Source: Muricea muricata (Eukaryota > Cnidaria > Anthozoa > Malacalcyonacea > Plexauridae). Taken from it: 64,000 nt of DNA. The translations under genes were made by a program, and so were the position numbers. Every line of letters begins with the position of its first letter. Position 1 is the first letter of the stretch. The notes below the pieces were generated by a model. It searched no databases. It saw nothing but the letters and a program-made list of their open reading frames with translations, and was not told the DNA's origin. Positions 41,501 to 43,853 of the stretch are shown piece by piece. The stretch lies in the NCBI GenBank assembly GCA_963855995.1, contig OY979724.1:7479772-7543771 (forward strand), given 5' to 3'.

Positions 41501-43853
41501 AAGTGGGAGGGCACTGTACCCCCCCCTGTTATGTGGCCTTCGATATTATAGGATGTCACCAGAAAGAAATTGTTATTGTGGTGTTTGTAACACAGAATTA
41601 ATTAAGTACTTATAAATAAATCAAAGTAGAATAAAACGGGAATGAAGCAAGCAAAAAATAATTGAATGAGATATATAATGAAATATATCATGAAATATAT
41701 AATAAAATAAATGATAAAATGGTGGTGTATGTTTGGTGTTGGCAATGCACCAGGGGTCATAGTGCATTCCATTTACAAAATTCCATGATATAGATACACC
41801 AATATGAACCTGGGAATTGGATTTGTCCAATATTCCCAACTAGGTGCATAACCCATTTGATTTAAAATAATTAATTTCCATAAAATAATTCAAACACATT
41901 AATGTCGTTTATATTCTATTAAGTTAAGTTACATTAATTCAGAGCATGATCGTAAATGTAAACAAATATGTCCACACATCTTAAAACGTTTTTAGTTATT
42001 CATGTCTCAAGGTAATAACTATATGTGTTACACATACGCTTAAATAACAATTTTAATTAATTACGTGGCATTGAAAACAGAATAAAATAGAGTTGACGTT
42101 TTACATACCAGTGAGTTGTACTGATTGGCCGTATCAGGCATTTTGGGCGCCGATCGCTTTGAAACTTGGCAGAATATCGATCAAATTTTACTCGAAAAGC
42201 TAAACATAATGAAATGTGAAAAGCTGTTTACTATCGGTTTTACTCTCCTCCACAGAGGCTTTTTTGATTTCTTAAACTAGCACCTCCACATTAGTCTTAC
42301 ATGACTTTTCAATAGATAATGAGGTTCACGGAGGATTGTGGGAAGTTGAAATTTAGTTGAAAAGTGAAACCGGATGTAAATCTGCAAATGGCCCTACTTT
42401 ACTATAGACTTATATTGAGGAACCATAGTTTTCACGGGTTTTTTGCTCTTACGTGTTACGGATCGGGCTGATTTTTACATCATACAGATAGAAGCCCACG
42501 GAAAGTATTTTGAGCAAAGAATTTCAGTTGTTTTGGCATTACAAGTTCGAAGCAGTGAAGCACCACTGGCACTGCTTGGGGTTTGATAAAAAAGGTGGTT
42601 GTGAAACAAATATAGTCGGGGAGGCAGAGGTACAAAAATATATGTTTACTTACCATACCGAGGAACAATTTCATTTTATGTTTACATTGTACCTTTAGGT
42701 CTAATAAATATATTTCTGCATGTTGAATGCGATAAAATTTCTTGTGGGCTCCAGCCAACACGTTTTCCCGAAATTTTCTATAAAACTATATTATTGTCAA
42801 GAAAGGTGAAATTTCAGATTTATTTCTAGGAAAAACCACTTACGTTATCAAAAAGGTAATAAAAAATTACATATAACACATTATTATGGTTACTTTTATT
42901 TTTCACATTTTTGTCGAGTTATGAGCGTTTGAAAACTTATTTTCCGACTAGTCCCCAGGAAATTAGCGCCATTTTAGGACACTTTCCCATTTTGAAGCAG
43001 CAATAACTCAAAAACGGCTTGAAAAACAAGGGTGCCCGTAATGTTGTCTTATATGTTGTTTTTTATAAGCTTTCTTATGATACAAGTTATTTTTCAAATA
43101 AACAAATTTAAAAGTTTACTATTTTTGACCACATAATAGTTTTATAATAAAACTGAAGAAAAACGTGTTAACCGAAGCCCACAAGATAAATCGGGCCGAA
43201 CAACATTCAGAATTGTGATACTAGGCATCCAACGAACAATTTAAGAGCAAAATTGTACATAATATTCCTTTTACAGCTGTCAGAAACTCGCGGAATATAC
43301 TAGAAATGCACTACATGCAGAAACCCCTCGCCGAAGCAAATTTCGATTCCGTAGACAGTCGGACACCTCCAAGATGGCTGAGCACCTCATTGATCTCGTT
43401 TCCAAGCCTATGTGTCTGATAAAACTAATGGATTTTTCTTTTTAAAACTTTGAATGATCCAATCCCTGACCCAAAACCTAAGCTTAACCCTTACAAAAAT
43501 CGTATAAAAGTAAAAAAAGATAAGAAAAAAAGTTTGACGAAATTTAAAAATAAAAAAAACTTCAGATGGGATTCGAACCCCTGCCAAATATCTTAGAAAT
43601 CATACGCCAAGACGACTGAGCTAACAACGAGCTTGCTGAAAGCCGTCGAAACAATTTTTTATAATACAACTTCGTCTAAATGAGCCAGAGCAGGCTGGGA
43701 GCGAGATCAATGAGGTGCTCGGCCATCTTGGAGGTGTCCGACCGTCTACGGAATCGAAATAAGCCTCGCCGAAACCTTTAGCTAATGACTTACCTCTGCC
43801 TCCATTGATACCTGTACTTCTCCACTTACTTGATCTGTTGAATTCCCAGGCAT
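7763..43853 (-). CDS. TMEM104: TMEM104 orthologue, nine coding exons, AAAP-type membrane protein
   Basis: Coding exons on the minus strand, in order: 43853-43794, 32279-32158, 31705-31611, 30133-30072, 21018-20988, 19827-19728, 18966-18888, 18775-18682, 8505-7763. Junctions are GT-AG, all phases agree and the sum is 1386 nt (461 aa plus stop). The protein follows TMEM104 from end to end: [15 protein letters not shown] (first membrane segment), [33 protein letters not shown] spanning exons 4-6, [16 protein letters not shown], a short Cys/Asn loop, [50 protein letters not shown] and [20 protein letters not shown]104 belongs to the amino acid/auxin permease-like superfamily; its substrate is not established. 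Vertebrate proteins are about 500 aa, so this one is close to full length. No frameshift or internal stop was found. Exon 1 is the least certain. Introns 1, 4 and 8 are 9-11.5 kb and packed with transposons; the others are 0.1-1.5 kb. Confidence 0.9.
9870..9985 (+). repeat. Hairpin repeat ending in AGCAGGCGTCTTGTT, copy 1
   Basis: Shares CTAATAA...TTAAAAGG(G)AATTA, GCCCATTTTC-like text, GGCAGGCG and TAGCAGGCGTCTTGTT with 13060-13215. Both look like the same end of one repeat family. It lies in the spacer of element A. Confidence 0.55.
11178..11255. repeat. Perfect 24-bp palindrome inside a longer stem
   Basis: 11206-11229 is a perfect palindrome centred on ATCGAT with CACGGTGAAA arms. The flanks CCTACGACGT and ACGTCGTCGG, and CCGAACC and GGTTCAGAG, extend the pairing to a stem of about 78 bases. 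A second GC-rich hairpin (CCGCCTGCCGTAGGCGAGG) lies at about 11302-11325. Confidence 0.75.
11844..12756 (+). repeat. 31-bp minisatellite bounded by an exact 31-bp direct repeat
   Basis: From about 12190 to 12720 a unit close to 31 bp, containing CTTGTCAACAAGCCAAAAGC and CTAACTGACAT, repeats about 16 times. The central units are most alike and the outer ones more diverged. Exactly the same 31 bases, TTCCCAACAAATTATATCGT plus GGAGACTTCAG, stand at 11844-11874 and 12726-12756, 882 bp apart. No coding sequence is present. Confidence 0.85.
13060..13215 (+). repeat. Hairpin repeat ending in AGCAGGCGTCTTGTT, copy 2
   Basis: Second copy of the repeat end at 9870-9985. It has the better hairpin: ACGCCT, loop TAGC, AGGCGT. 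It lies 300 bp downstream of the minisatellite and may be the end of the element that carries it. Confidence 0.55.
13216..14104. other. Non-coding stretch in TMEM104 intron 8
   Basis: AT-rich, with no supported gene or repeat. Confidence 0.45.
14105..16058. mobile_element. Inverted-repeat element B, about 1.95 kb
   Basis: The arms are about 440 bp: 14105-14545 and, inverted, 15609-16058. Shared text includes CTAGATTGCTGACTCAT, GCGCGGGAACCGGG, CGAGACATTTGTTGTCCAAA and GCTTGATTTGTGTGGTGTG. The long frames in each arm (14173 plus strand, 15913 minus strand) are mirror images and are not genes. Outside both ends lie CCTG/GCCTG tetranucleotides, so it may have inserted in a CCTG microsatellite. 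The spacer holds a hAT-like MITE. Element B is itself inside the insertion that splits element A. Confidence 0.82.
15367..15569. mobile_element. hAT-like MITE, copy 1, with 8-bp target duplication
   Basis: The 203-bp element begins CAGAGGCGGATCCAG and ends CTAGATCCGCCACTG, with TAAGTCAAAATAAATTA inside each end. The flanks TGTGACAC and TGTGATAC differ at one base and have the 8-bp length of a hAT target duplication. CAGTGGCGGATC termini are typical of hAT non-autonomous elements. It is nested in element B. Confidence 0.85.
16055..16130 (+). repeat. Compound tetranucleotide repeat CCTG, CCCG, CCGA
   Basis: The repeat unit changes stepwise along the tract: about four CCTG, then four to five CCCG, then about twelve CCGA. 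It abuts the right end of element B. Confidence 0.95.
16510..17350. mobile_element. Foldback element C, interrupted by a hAT-like MITE
   Basis: The whole region is one large palindrome: CAGGTAGCCCAGGAACGCGG on the left answers CGCGTTCCTGGGCTACCT on the right. It includes GATATGCGAAGTATTTT and TTGTGAAACAAGTTTGTA arms and a short centre near 16855. The right arm is broken only by the MITE at 17065-17271. A possible short target duplication is GAACAAT / GAATAAT outside the ends. Confidence 0.85.
17065..17271. mobile_element. hAT-like MITE, copy 2, with exact 8-bp target duplication
   Basis: Same family as 15367-15569, in the opposite orientation. It begins near GTGGCGGATCTAG and ends CTGGATCCGCCACTG. 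TTGCCTAC stands directly on both sides (17057-17064 and 17272-17279). The left terminus has a few extra bases (CATGCC). Removing the element and one duplication restores the arm of foldback C. Confidence 0.88.
18682..18775 (-). CDS. TMEM104: TMEM104 exon 8
   Basis: Acceptor CTACGTTTAG, donor GTAAGT. Encodes [20 protein letters not shown] then [11 protein letters not shown]. The [10 protein letters not shown] stretch is conserved in the family. It is separated from exon 9 by a 10.2-kb intron. Confidence 0.9.
18888..18966 (-). CDS. TMEM104: TMEM104 exon 7, extracytosolic loop
   Basis: Acceptor TATGTTTTTAG, donor GTTTGT (weak but phase-correct). Encodes [20 protein letters not shown] then VYRIIV, with an Asn-Ser-Thr glycosylation-type site, as expected for the variable loop before the next membrane segment. 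Confidence 0.8.
19728..19827 (-). CDS. TMEM104: TMEM104 exon 6
   Basis: Acceptor TTTCTTGTAG, donor GTAAGT. Encodes [20 protein letters not shown] then [12 protein letters not shown]. The [10 protein letters not shown] block is a strongly conserved TMEM104 membrane segment. Confidence 0.92.
20988..21018 (-). CDS. TMEM104: TMEM104 exon 5, a 31-nt microexon
   Basis: Acceptor TTTTGCCTAG, donor GTAAGT. The 31 bases encode [10 protein letters not shown] plus the first base of the next codon. Together with exons 4 and 6 this restores the conserved EMG-x-MA-x-MFF segment of the family, which neither neighbour encodes. Confidence 0.85.
22160..22281. mobile_element. MITE family 2, copy 1 (foldback, about 120 bp)
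   Basis: Palindromic ends AACAATTATTGAATTCGGC and the complement GCCTCAACCAATAATTGTT enclose GATATCAAGATT and its complement. The same ends occur at 46015-46154. Confidence 0.65.
22300..22445 (+). repeat. Two tandem copies of a segment of about 72 bp
   Basis: TCTGATTGGCTC followed by CTACTAGTAGGATATTAGCT occurs twice, at about 22325 and 22397, with ATTAAG(T/C)ATTCTGT before each. No gene is present. Confidence 0.7.
22777..23205 (-). pseudogene. BEL/Pao integrase N-terminus, truncated
   Basis: Contains the H2C2 zinc-binding module (HKRVYH, then CCTCHR) and the lead-in to the catalytic core ([12 protein letters not shown]), where the first catalytic Asp lies. The rest of the core and the 3' LTR are absent. 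A stop and frame change separate it from the RNase H region upstream. Confidence 0.88.
23238..25400 (-). pseudogene. BEL/Pao reverse transcriptase and RNase H, frameshifted
   Basis: The first part (25108-24623) holds [20 protein letters not shown] and [14 protein letters not shown] with the motif A Asp. A frameshift near 24640 leads to the second part (24626-23238), with FYVDDLVAG (YVDD catalytic motif), [14 protein letters not shown] (Pao-specific region) and RNase H residues in [31 protein letters not shown] and DVGSRG. Upstream, 25400-25110 holds [11 protein letters not shown] from the domain after the protease in a broken frame. The protease itself is not found between gag and this segment. 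Confidence 0.9.
25297..26128 (-). pseudogene. BEL/Pao gag with zinc knuckles, internally deleted
   Basis: The N-terminal part (26128-25766) is a charged helical region starting [19 protein letters not shown] frame change near 25810 leads to a second part with [13 protein letters not shown] and [15 protein letters not shown] (CCHC-type knuckles) and CSECNGRHH. The first part is shorter than a normal gag N-terminus, so the central gag domain is probably deleted. Confidence 0.82.
26960..27299 (+). repeat. (ATT)n microsatellite, about 340 bp uninterrupted
   Basis: About 113 perfect ATT units without a single interruption, between unrelated AT-rich flanks. Confidence 0.99.
27300..28430. other. 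Non-coding stretch in TMEM104 intron 4
   Basis: Short frames on both strands show no domain and no good splice partners. Nothing further is supported. Confidence 0.45.
28431..29266 (-). CDS. Small two-exon gene of unknown function, Cys-rich N-terminus, acidic and Gly-rich tail
   Basis: Exon 1 (29266-29006, 87 codons) starts at [10 protein letters not shown], carries [20 protein letters not shown] with five Cys in 15 residues (possible metal site), and ends DDASSS at a perfect GTGAGT donor in phase 0. Exon 2 (28571-28431) follows a TTTCTTTGATAG acceptor, continues in phase 0 as [20 protein letters not shown], then a Gly/Gln tail, and stops at TAG after AAQAPD. The product would be 133 aa. The clean donor, matching phase and long open exon 2 support a real gene or a recent gene copy. 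It lies inside TMEM104 intron 4 on the same strand. I do not recognise the family; extra internal exons cannot be excluded. Confidence 0.55.
30072..30133 (-). CDS. TMEM104: TMEM104 exon 4
   Basis: Bounded by a TATTTTCAG acceptor and a GTGAGT donor. It encodes [20 protein letters not shown], the cytosolic loop leading to the conserved glutamate-methionine-glycine segment. Phases join exon 3 and exon 5 exactly. Confidence 0.88.
30507..30759. mobile_element. Foldback MITE, 253 bp, with 7-bp target duplication
   Basis: Ends CATAGATATTAGAAA and its complement; the inner sequence stays palindromic almost to the centre (GCACAACTCGCTATGGTAAT against its mirror). GTAGAAT stands directly on both sides (30500-30506 and 30760-30766). 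Confidence 0.85.
31168..31816 (+). repeat. Pair of direct 24-bp repeats flanking TMEM104 exon 3
   Basis: TATTGTACTTTCAGGTTTAA with matching flanking bases occurs at 31169-31192 and 31794-31816, one on each side of exon 3. Weaker relatives lie near 18985 and 42685. Confidence 0.6.
31611..31705 (-). CDS. TMEM104: TMEM104 exon 3
   Basis: Starts after CACGAATAG and encodes [20 protein letters not shown] followed by a charged loop (QEKEKCEEE). Ends at a GTAAGG donor in phase 1. A second possible donor five bases downstream (GTAAAG) would break the frame to exon 4. Confidence 0.9.
32158..32279 (-). CDS. TMEM104: TMEM104 exon 2, first membrane segment
   Basis: Starts after CTTCTTTTAAG and ends at a GTAATT donor (phase 2). 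It encodes [20 protein letters not shown], the diagnostic first transmembrane segment of AAAP-type carriers, then a second hydrophobic run ([14 protein letters not shown]). Confidence 0.92.
33559..34075 (+). repeat. Compound microsatellite with changing hexamer units, then (TA)n
   Basis: The unit changes in order: TATACA, then GTGTATATGTAT variants, TATGTA, TGCATA (about eight), TGCAAA (about nine), then about 300 bp of TA with scattered G, C and T interruptions. All long frames here are repeat translations. Confidence 0.97.
34513..34934 (+). pseudogene. DIRS-type tyrosine recombinase fragment joined to an RNase H remnant
   Basis: From about 34531 one frame gives [13 protein letters not shown], the end of the DIRS RNase H domain. 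Another frame from 34585 gives a tyrosine-recombinase core: [55 protein letters not shown] and [13 protein letters not shown], with the H-x-x-R box. Joining of RNase H to the recombinase implies a deletion. The protein then runs straight into (TA)n at 34935, so the last catalytic block with the nucleophilic Tyr is absent. Confidence 0.82.
34935..35070 (+). repeat. (TA)n tract
   Basis: About 136 bp of perfect TA between the DIRS fragment and the 3' end of Penelope-like element 2. Confidence 0.99.
35108..35165 (-). ncRNA. Hammerhead ribozyme downstream of Penelope-like element 2
   Basis: On the minus strand: UAUCAC (stem I), CUGAUGAG, stem II UGUGGCAGGC with loop UUU and its partner GCCUGGCAUA, then C-GAAA, a very short stem III CAA-UU-UUG, the GUA cleavage triplet, and GUGAUA closing stem I. 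All invariant core bases (CUGANGA, GAAA, UH) are present. A short stem III is characteristic of hammerheads in Penelope-like retroelements. It lies about 75 bp after the end of the GIY-YIG frame. Confidence 0.88.
35241..35605 (-). pseudogene. Penelope-like element 2, GIY-YIG endonuclease fragment
   Basis: Minus-strand text gives [31 protein letters not shown], then in a shifted frame [20 protein letters not shown] and [20 protein letters not shown], the C-terminal GIY-YIG endonuclease of Penelope-like elements with its Cys-x-x-Cys and CRHR motifs. The 5' side is cut by (TA)n at about 35614, so the reverse transcriptase is absent. It differs clearly from element 1 and represents another subfamily. 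Confidence 0.85.
35614..35769 (+). repeat. (TA)n tract
   Basis: About 155 bp of TA with one TTTG interruption near 35696, between the truncated 5' side of Penelope-like element 2 and the 3' end of element 1. Confidence 0.98.
35872..35933 (-). ncRNA. Hammerhead ribozyme downstream of Penelope-like element 1
   Basis: On the minus strand: AGAUC, an internal loop, UGC (stem I), CUGACGA, a four-pair stem II CGCU-UUAU-AGCG, GAAA, a short stem III CUC-G-GAG, the GUA cleavage triplet, then GCA, an internal loop and GGUCU closing stem I. The CUGANGA and GAAA cores are intact. A U-U pair replaces the usual G-C at the base of stem II, which could lower activity. The internal loop in stem I is as in natural hammerheads. 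It starts about 15 bp after the stop codon of the element 1 endonuclease. Confidence 0.82.
35948..36316 (-). CDS. Penelope-like element 1 GIY-YIG endonuclease
   Basis: Begins in the middle of the domain with VVYQAEV and [20 protein letters not shown] (the YIG-like and conserved Arg region), then a conserved SKHVWEL and [15 protein letters not shown], ending [15 protein letters not shown]. The Cys-rich linker just before it ([15 protein letters not shown]) is separated only by one stop codon. The whole serves as the nicking endonuclease of the retroelement. Confidence 0.9.
   Translation of the reverse strand: MVYQAEVTADNNKPVKYIGVTADDFKTRFRNHVKSLAHKKYSKETELSKHVWELNAAKKPLTIKWSLLKKVPVYKAGSRRCNLCLEEKLTIMKNKDNALLNKRTELFTKCRHVTRYLVSNCK
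36827..37882 (-). CDS. Penelope-like element 1 reverse transcriptase
   Basis: Contains [15 protein letters not shown] (N-terminal signature), [38 protein letters not shown] (motif A, Asp present), [16 protein letters not shown] and [11 protein letters not shown] (motif C, catalytic YRDD intact), [13 protein letters not shown] and a thumb region. This is a full Penelope-type reverse transcriptase core with no internal stop. The frame ends at a stop near 36827, beyond which the linker continues in another frame. Coding continues upstream of 37882 to about 37960. Confidence 0.9.
   Translation of the reverse strand: MKQFEDDVAKMIENIKFRNYSDKFINMVEEDKKRVRTSQSVFIPADKTRNMYEMSAPAYDKLVTENVTKTYKLADINTAKNINTELKDIACHLNIANRIEPMAETPAFISLKDHKENFNNNPQCRLINSAKSNLGKVCKTILDRINDNIRTQTRSNQWRNTDDTIQWFKAINNKDKYTFLNFDIAEFYPSISEHLLDDAISWARQYTDITDHDIKIIKHARQSLLFHNNQTWTRRNTTDAFDVTTGSYDGAEICELVGLFILNKLEDRFENIGLYRDDGLAAIKTTSGRLADKARKQLTETFNKFGLKITATANLRRVNFLDITLDLTDGTYKPYRKPNDEPLYINRLSNH
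37971..39430 (-). CDS. SWIM zinc finger plus YqaJ-type exonuclease protein, C-terminally truncated
   Basis: The long open exon follows a GTTCTAG acceptor at about 39430. The N-terminal half contains [13 protein letters not shown], a SWIM-type C-x-C...C-x-H zinc finger. The C-terminal half contains [29 protein letters not shown] and [12 protein letters not shown]...LVEVKCK, the YqaJ/lambda-exonuclease-like fold with its Asp and Glu-x-Lys catalytic residues. Such SWIM-YqaJ proteins are multicopy in many invertebrate genomes and have a transposon-like distribution; their biological role is uncertain. The reading frame leaves the YqaJ domain just after EVKCK and stops, next to the edge of Penelope-like element 1, so roughly the last 80-100 residues are lost. 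An upstream exon is likely but was not fixed (GTGTAAG donor near 39575). It lies in TMEM104 intron 1. Confidence 0.85.
39767..39783 (+). repeat. Poly(G) run, 17 bases
   Basis: Perfect G homopolymer. Other long G/C runs occur near 6370, 41180, 46450, 51893 and 52420. Confidence 0.95.
39784..43295. other. Long non-coding part of TMEM104 intron 1
   Basis: No gene is supported. Near 40960-40985, CCCTAGACCTACTATAT repeats the outer terminus of element B. Frames such as 42480-42761 lack domains and splice partners. Confidence 0.45.
43336..43763. mobile_element. MULE-like MITE with 10-bp target duplication and a tRNA-like core
   Basis: The inverted ends share TTTCGATTCCGTAGAC, GTCGGACACCTCCAAGATGG and GAGCACCTCATTGATCTCG (about 75 bp per arm). 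CCTCGCCGAA stands exactly on both sides (43326-43335 and 43764-43773), a length typical of Mutator-like transposons. The centre holds the tRNA-like segment at 43562-43634. It inserted about 20 bp inside TMEM104 intron 1, next to the donor of exon 1. Confidence 0.88.
43562..43634 (-). other. tRNA-like sequence with RNA polymerase III A and B boxes
   Basis: On the minus strand TTAGCTCAGTCG fits the A box and GGGGTTCGAATCCC the B box, correctly spaced for a tRNA. The acceptor strands do not pair and the anticodon stem is poor, so it is not a functional tRNA. It may be a tRNA-derived SINE core or a captured tRNA inside the MITE. Confidence 0.7.
43794..43853 (-). CDS. TMEM104: TMEM104 exon 1 (proposed first coding exon)
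   Basis: Twenty codons start at an ATG in AAGAAGAATGCC context, contain [12 protein letters not shown] and stop at a GTAAGT donor in phase 0, matching the phase-0 start of exon 2. Its length fits the short N-terminus that precedes the first membrane segment in TMEM104. Support also comes from sequence shared between the bases after this donor and those before the exon 2 acceptor. Sequence similarity in the N-terminus itself is too low to prove it. Confidence 0.55.

Follow-up and report, generated by a model that had tools for sequence, protein, structure and literature searches.

Within the 64-kb stretch of DNA analysed (hereafter the window), a MITE is inserted in a minus-strand TMEM104-like gene, TMEM104 being the name we presume for this gene; an Aa_trans domain was found in one of its later exons. 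In agreement with an earlier sequence-only reading of the locus, the right target-site duplication (TSD) of the MITE ends 20 bp within the apparent intron 1, i.e., 20 bp downstream of the putative coding part of exon 1 (Table 1).

Table 1. The MITE and neighbouring features, given as positions in the window
Feature	Position	Strand
Left TSD, CTCGCCGAA (9 bp)	43327..43335	.
MITE, subfamily A copy, 429 bp (family consensus 432 bp), by aligned copies	43336..43764	+
5' terminal inverted repeat (TIR), ~66 bp	43336..43401	+
tRNA-like Pol III-type unit; 5' end by homology with chimera L053	43552..43636	-
T8 run, predicted Pol III terminator	43552..43559	-
B box, GGTTCGAATCC	43569..43579	-
A box, TAGCTCAGTCG	43613..43623	-
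3' TIR, ~66 bp	43699..43764	-
Right TSD, CTCGCCGAA (9 bp)	43765..43773	.
Putative coding part of exon 1, TMEM104-like host gene (20 residues, then GTAAGT donor)	43794..43853	-

The MITE and its family

The MITE noticed from the sequence alone is real, with corrections to its ends. Its borders were set by alignment of the window copy with 39 fetched copies, exact GCAAATTTCG forming the start in 34 and exact CGAAATAAGC the end in 33 of these 40. Inverted arms of 77 nt (43328-43404 and 43696-43772) are 90% complementary and include TSD bases; the inverted ends are thus present as proposed, but the TIRs proper measure ~66 bp rather than ~75 bp. Similarly, the target duplication is indeed perfect, but it is 9 bp and not 10 bp long, because the tenth base is, as the 39 further copies show, the last base of the MITE itself. 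Among the 40 copies, 9-bp TSDs are perfect in 14 and carry one mismatch in 21 (35 with at most one), two mismatches in two, three in two and six in one, and the insertion targets display a preference for nnCGNCGnn. The event was previously thought to be recent, which is not borne out by the window copy, differing from the consensus by 5.4% and ranking 33rd of 40.

The tRNA-like core is a family-wide feature of the MITE, in support of the sequence-only reading. It was found in 112 MITE copies, belonging to three subfamilies with diverged ends (A, 62; B, 37; C, 13), and the 40 whole-element matches (39 fetched plus the window copy) all possess both ends and at least 60 nt of the core. The window copy is therefore not a solitary core bearer. 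Perfect TSDs flank nine of 11 full-length B copies. Of 20 loci fetched by an exact 21-bp end, picked mostly for their absence from the core list, eight retain at least 60 nt of the core.

One relative, L108, comprises 8,982 bp between inverted ends that are 95-97% like those of subfamily C. It contains a MULE domain (PF10551, E=4e-8) and a FAR1-like match below the cut-off of that model (E=7e-4); its reading frames are interrupted, and no matching TSD was found. A second copy, L116, is 96% identical over the 1.4 kb fetched. Since no tRNA-like core is present across the 8,982 bp of L108, despite its C-type ends and MULE domain, the core has the appearance of foreign cargo carried between MULE ends. 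The proposed MULE-like assignment gains support from this relative, with its related ends, together with the 9-bp TSD.

The tRNA-like unit

On the minus strand, the A box is followed by the B box, 33 bp apart, and then by the T8 run. Short motifs of this kind, matching no tRNA model, might reflect chance resemblance in an AT-rich MITE. This explanation is already disfavoured and we regard it as extremely improbable: when the MITE consensus was shuffled 20,000 times with dinucleotides preserved, an A-B pair at 20-60 bp spacing never arose, and alignment of the core with host tRNA-Lys scores 35-42, as against a shuffle maximum of 21 (300 shuffles each). The boxes described earlier are genuine, and no second A-B pair at this spacing occurs elsewhere within the 64-kb window.

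The suggested use of a tRNA finder did not recover the unit. At default threshold, ARAGORN reported no tRNA in the window, the MITE consensus or the 40 copies, and at a lowered threshold only ill-paired candidates were among the matches listed. Rfam gave no tRNA match and, under lax limits, only sub-threshold matches to other families. Judged from its sequence, the unit is decayed, tRNA models no longer accepting it.

The predicted product of the unit is a short Pol III RNA of ~85 nt without a TIR-spanning hairpin. The hairpin RNA envisaged before is unsupported, because the T-run just past the B box should end the Pol III transcript inside the MITE interior.

A chimera outside the MITE copies

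Of 85 core places examined, a single one, L053, which was located through its core, lies outside a MITE. The stretch homologous to the core sets in 13 nt ahead of the A box; at the T-run it gives way to a LINE 3' end, the whole being situated within another repeat. This LINE 3' end recurs at 13 fetched loci, and two relatives of the hosting repeat lack the insertion. The head carries all three B-specific bases and differs from the B consensus by 4.8% (B copies average 5.5%). In a test devised after L053 had been seen, only 60 of 29,757 intervals of the MITE (0.2%) had both ends so placed. No clear TSD was discerned at L053 (2 bp at most by eye). L053 resembles a U6/LINE-type RNA chimera and looks as if it was made from RNA and then copied back into DNA; its structure suggests that the tRNA-like unit was transcribed.

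A possible, though clearly less probable, explanation is that a dead tRNA-like or SINE-head fragment was caught by chance and never transcribed, in which case L053 would be a truncated LINE insertion whose 5' end was patched, at the DNA level, with MITE-B sequence. Consistent with this, L053 is the only chimera among the places examined, no tRNA fold was found for the unit, and the 40 copies reveal no constraint on the boxes: the core is their most diverged segment (5.9% vs 3.7-4.2% for the others), the A- and B-box windows falling at the 24th and 70th percentiles, respectively. However, both ends of L053 fit the expected Pol III start and stop, and the consensus of each of subfamilies A, B and C retains A box, B box and T-run despite the diverged ends. 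Of the 112 individual cores, 54 have preserved both boxes together with a run of at least four T.

We consider it unlikely that a MULE MITE received a SINE with this head, that the LINE tail of this SINE then disappeared and that the two were amplified together, leaving L053 as a relic of the SINE. L053 does have the architecture of a SINE, with a tRNA-like head and a LINE 3' end, and either the A/C or the B bases could be ancestral; yet its B-specific bases and B-like divergence speak against a relic, no second head-tail junction was found among 40 scored of 355 candidates, and the A, B and C consensus past the T-run does not resemble the tail of L053. As originally worded, the idea of a SINE/MITE chimera does not hold, the MITE containing a head-like unit only, without LINE tail. 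L053, the sole SINE-like object, seems to run the opposite way, from unit RNA to its junction with a LINE.

Discussion

The explanation we favour, with a probability of about 0.72, is a non-autonomous MULE MITE carrying a foreign, decayed tRNA-like Pol III unit, one RNA of which was retrotransposed with a LINE. The MITE would belong to the Mutator superfamily, its ends deriving from an L108-type MULE, and L108 or similar elements would have supplied the transposase that moved it. The putative unit, on the minus strand of the MITE's foreign interior, was presumably gained before the A/B/C split, and cut-and-paste transposition would then have multiplied it at the DNA level. The ~85-nt RNA ending in U's is probably made from intact units, or was made in the past, and a B-type RNA may have joined at least once to a LINE 3' part, subsequent retrotransposition giving rise to L053.

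Mutator-like MITEs and Pack-MULEs have long TIRs, a 9-bp TSD and foreign sequence between MULE ends. The window MITE shares these traits and has a relative with a MULE transposase domain, but it carries a tRNA-like unit of Pol III type rather than a fragment of a protein gene, its host is an animal and not a plant, and its family targets nnCGNCGnn. HaSE2 of Helicoverpa armigera, a SINE with a mariner-derived 3' region, likewise unites sequence of a DNA transposon with a Pol III head related to tRNA; it is described as a SINE family, and neither "inverted repeat" nor "MITE" occurs in the text describing it (PMC3272025). The window MITE family, in contrast, possesses both TIRs and fixed 9-bp TSDs, which demonstrate DNA transposition. 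L053 itself is comparable to U6/LINE-1 and related chimeric retroinsertions (PMC4476161, PMC13174262) and to MINE chimeras (PMC2104539), in that a small-RNA sequence lies in sense orientation and is continued 3' by a LINE that has lost its 5' part. It differs from them in lacking a clear TSD and in that its RNA would have come from a unit residing inside a DNA transposon.

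Boundaries and copies of the element

Alignment of the window copy against 39 further copies places the MITE at 43336-43764. It starts with GCAAATTTCG (exact in 34 of the 40 copies) and finishes with CGAAATAAGC (exact in 33), and the aligned copies are flanked by a target duplication of 9 bp. The sequence-only reading had reported 10 bp; the tenth base is the element's own terminal C, which by chance equals the base preceding the left duplication. Fourteen of the 40 duplications are perfect, 21 carry one mismatch, two carry two, two carry three and one carries six. Insertion targets strongly follow nnCGNCGnn, the four C/G positions conforming in 66, 68, 68 and 65 of 80 cases. 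As expected of MITEs, the aligned copies are short and homogeneous in length (417-437 bp), multicopy, non-coding and bounded by terminal inverted repeats (TIRs). They differ from a 432-bp consensus by 2.3-7.9%, the window copy by 5.4%. These 40 are the scored ones among 668 first-look candidates from the 453-Mb assembly, so the set leans towards window-like copies.

The family falls into three subfamilies, A (to which the window copy belongs), B and C. Their interiors are almost the same, while their subterminal arms have diverged. The arms change in step on both sides, and TIR pairing is thereby preserved. On one side the subterminal repeat of subfamily C is longer; in subfamily B, duplications are perfect in 9 of 11 full-length copies.

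Two observations concern the neighbourhood of the window copy. A second MITE-like inverted repeat (ttttccctaa...gcgaggcttggtggt...ttagggaaaa), recognized by eye, lies 250 bp from the MITE at 44010-44130. Open frames on the minus strand at 22777-25845 and 35948-39464 resemble what we take to be BEL/Pao-type and Penelope-type retroelements and a YqaJ-like exonuclease.

Relationship to MULE transposons

Non-autonomous MULE elements have target duplications of 8-11 bp, usually 9, and share their ends with an element encoding MULE transposase. At most one mismatch over 9 bp was found in 35 of the 40 copies, and an element with such ends was identified as well. Locus L108 is an element of 8,982 bp with intact inverted ends of the C type, which are 95-97% like subfamily C and about 76-78% like subfamily A. 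One stop-bounded piece of it matches the MULE domain PF10551 (E=4e-8) and a second matches a FAR1 domain (E 7e-4, below its cut-off). The same element recurs at L116, where the 1.4 kb fetched is about 96% identical. Since L108 combines C-type ends with a MULE domain, the MITE belongs, judged by sequence, to the MULE superfamily, in agreement with the initial description of it as MULE-like.

The reading frames of L108 are interrupted, no 9-bp duplication was found in its flanks, and it lacks the core and resembles none of the A, B and C interiors convincingly. Its coding region also matches a small number of further loci, truncated or diverged (best 40 of 822 candidates); many of these matches are confined to a single stretch of some 80 bp. 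An autonomous partner with A-type ends, the direct mobilizer of subfamily A, was not found. Inside L108, a frame at 4968-5261 (minus strand) contains three C2H2 zinc-finger matches, possibly captured host sequence.

The tRNA-like core

The interior of the MITE contains a tRNA-like unit on the minus strand, and in the window copy this unit has the orientation of the TMEM104-like host gene and lies just after exon 1.

Promoter and terminator motifs of the tRNA-like unit in the window copy
Feature	Position	Strand
A box	43613-43623	minus
B box	43569-43579	minus
T8 run	43552-43559	minus

A type-2 Pol III promoter consists of properly spaced A and B boxes, with a T-run as terminator, and this layout is present in the consensus of A, B and C alike. 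An A-B pair 20-60 bp apart arose in 0 of 20,000 consensus shuffles and no second one occurs anywhere else within the window, so the boxes first noticed in the sequence-only reading hold up. A MULE-type MITE family carries a Pol III-type unit.

The core aligns to host tRNA-Lys(TTT) with scores of 35-42, the maximum in 300 shuffles each being 21. tRNA-Lys(TTT) was the one isoacceptor compared, because the matches returned by the parent-tRNA search all lie in a tRNA array on contig C1, bar one on C12, and the seven inspected loci of this array all carry tRNA-Lys(TTT). The array itself is a large tandem one (G000:C1:68263855-68744526, loci L128-L157), with about one gene per 346 bp in the inspected stretches and many slightly diverged copies.

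A canonical tRNA or tmRNA is ruled out, no tRNA model accepting the core: ARAGORN at default settings found 0 tRNA genes in the consensus and 40 copies, and an Rfam search gave no tRNA match. Lax Rfam limits returned sub-threshold matches alone, one being mascRNA-menRNA (E 7.6). The hairpin RNA envisaged in the sequence-only reading, a Pol III transcript across both TIRs, is likewise ruled out on sequence, because the T8 run intervenes before the TIR that follows the unit. A SINE/MITE chimera had also been considered. SINEs are retrotransposed copies with a head, a LINE-like or A-rich tail and variable-length target duplications; the MITE copies have TIRs, fixed 9-bp duplications and no tail.

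Distribution and conservation of the core

A 32-base core pattern, allowing up to 3 mismatches, matched 126 places in the assembly and 0 in the control. Among the 100 matches listed we examined 85 (24 in the 40-copy set, 41 in L048-L087 and 20 short stretches, L158-L177), and 84 sit in MITE sequence, the exception being L053. Counting fetched places with at least 60 nt of core, L001-L008 excluded, we obtained 112 MITE cores including that of the window (A 62, B 37, C 13), plus L053. The suggested search for copies with and without the core thus revealed it in all three subfamilies. Within this set, the shared flanks of L077/L079 and of L085/L086 show that neither pair represents two independent insertions, and suggest segmental duplications.

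An exact 21-bp end pattern matched 209 places, and 20 loci were fetched among the 100 matches listed. Three were chosen for facing end pairs and the remainder for absence from the core list, which lowers the core-bearing share in this sample. Two of the loci, L108 and L116, are long elements; L120 and L121 show no MITE interior, and the other 16 have one. At least 60 nt of core is kept in 8 of these 16 and not in the other 8, indicating that the core is often lost or damaged. At one fetched locus, L109 (C1:107104653-107106073), two MITE copies in inverted orientation are separated by 9 bp, as long as a single target duplication.

Among the first 40 copies, 36 have an intact A box, 22 an intact B box and 19 both. 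The core is their most diverged segment (5.9% versus 3.7-4.2% elsewhere), and we saw in them neither constraint on the boxes nor purifying selection on them after insertion. Any benefit would therefore concern source copies, or there is none. Across the 112 cores, variation is 3.3% in the A box, 4.5% in the B box and 7.2% at other core positions; the boxes vary less here, but many of these loci were picked by a pattern overlapping the B box.

A core joined to a LINE end

L053 (C1:97077522) carries a core outside any MITE. Its homology to subfamily B runs from 13 nt before the A box to a T6 run, directly followed by a LINE 3' end common to 13 fetched relatives. The insertion, about 230 bp long, interrupts another repeat, two copies of which lack it; its flanks show no clear target duplication. 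The 5' starts of the 13 relatives vary, an (AATA)n tail ends the 10 of them whose tail was inspected, and they contain a frame that we take to correspond to the C-terminal portion of a LINE reverse transcriptase. These three traits point to a LINE as the source of the tail. No long reverse transcriptase frame was seen upstream of the fetched locus L088. Four of the 13 (L092, L097, L098, L100) start near the same GGGCCCAC site as the L053 junction, a possible reverse-transcription stop.

The head of L053 has the B base at each of the 3 sites that distinguish B from both A and C, and its divergence from the B consensus is 4.8% (mean of B copies, 5.5%). Of 29,757 element intervals of 60-150 bp, only 60 would combine a start 9-20 nt ahead of the A box with an end in the T-run, by a test devised after the locus was seen. 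We read the head as probably an RNA with Pol III-like ends, derived from a B-type unit. The source may instead have been an older parent, outside the MITEs, with the B bases. L053 bears only indirectly on the putative Pol III transcription of the unit.

Discussion

We propose that MULE transposase would cut and paste the MITE ends and carry the tRNA-like cargo along; the unit may yield an RNA of about 85 nt, its T-run preventing a TIR hairpin transcript. It is possible, at roughly one chance in three, that a DNA transposon packaged a Pol III unit and spread dispersed small-RNA units genome-wide, whose RNA, joined to LINE RNA, can seed SINEs. Cut-and-paste transposition would then act as a retrotransposon nursery, and L053 would be a newborn, never-amplified SINE. 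To our knowledge, Pol III units are not normally expected in Class II elements, and no description of such an element turned up in a literature collection, containing few subscription papers, that was searched for MITEs, MULEs or DNA transposons bearing sequence of tRNA or Pol III type.

If active, the family would provide the genome with numerous scattered start sites for Pol III, one of them in sense direction in a host intron, and would link DNA transposons and SINE birth in one genome. L053 has the same structure as U6/LINE chimeras, which published work attributes either to template switching or to ligation of RNAs (PMC4476161, PMC13174262).
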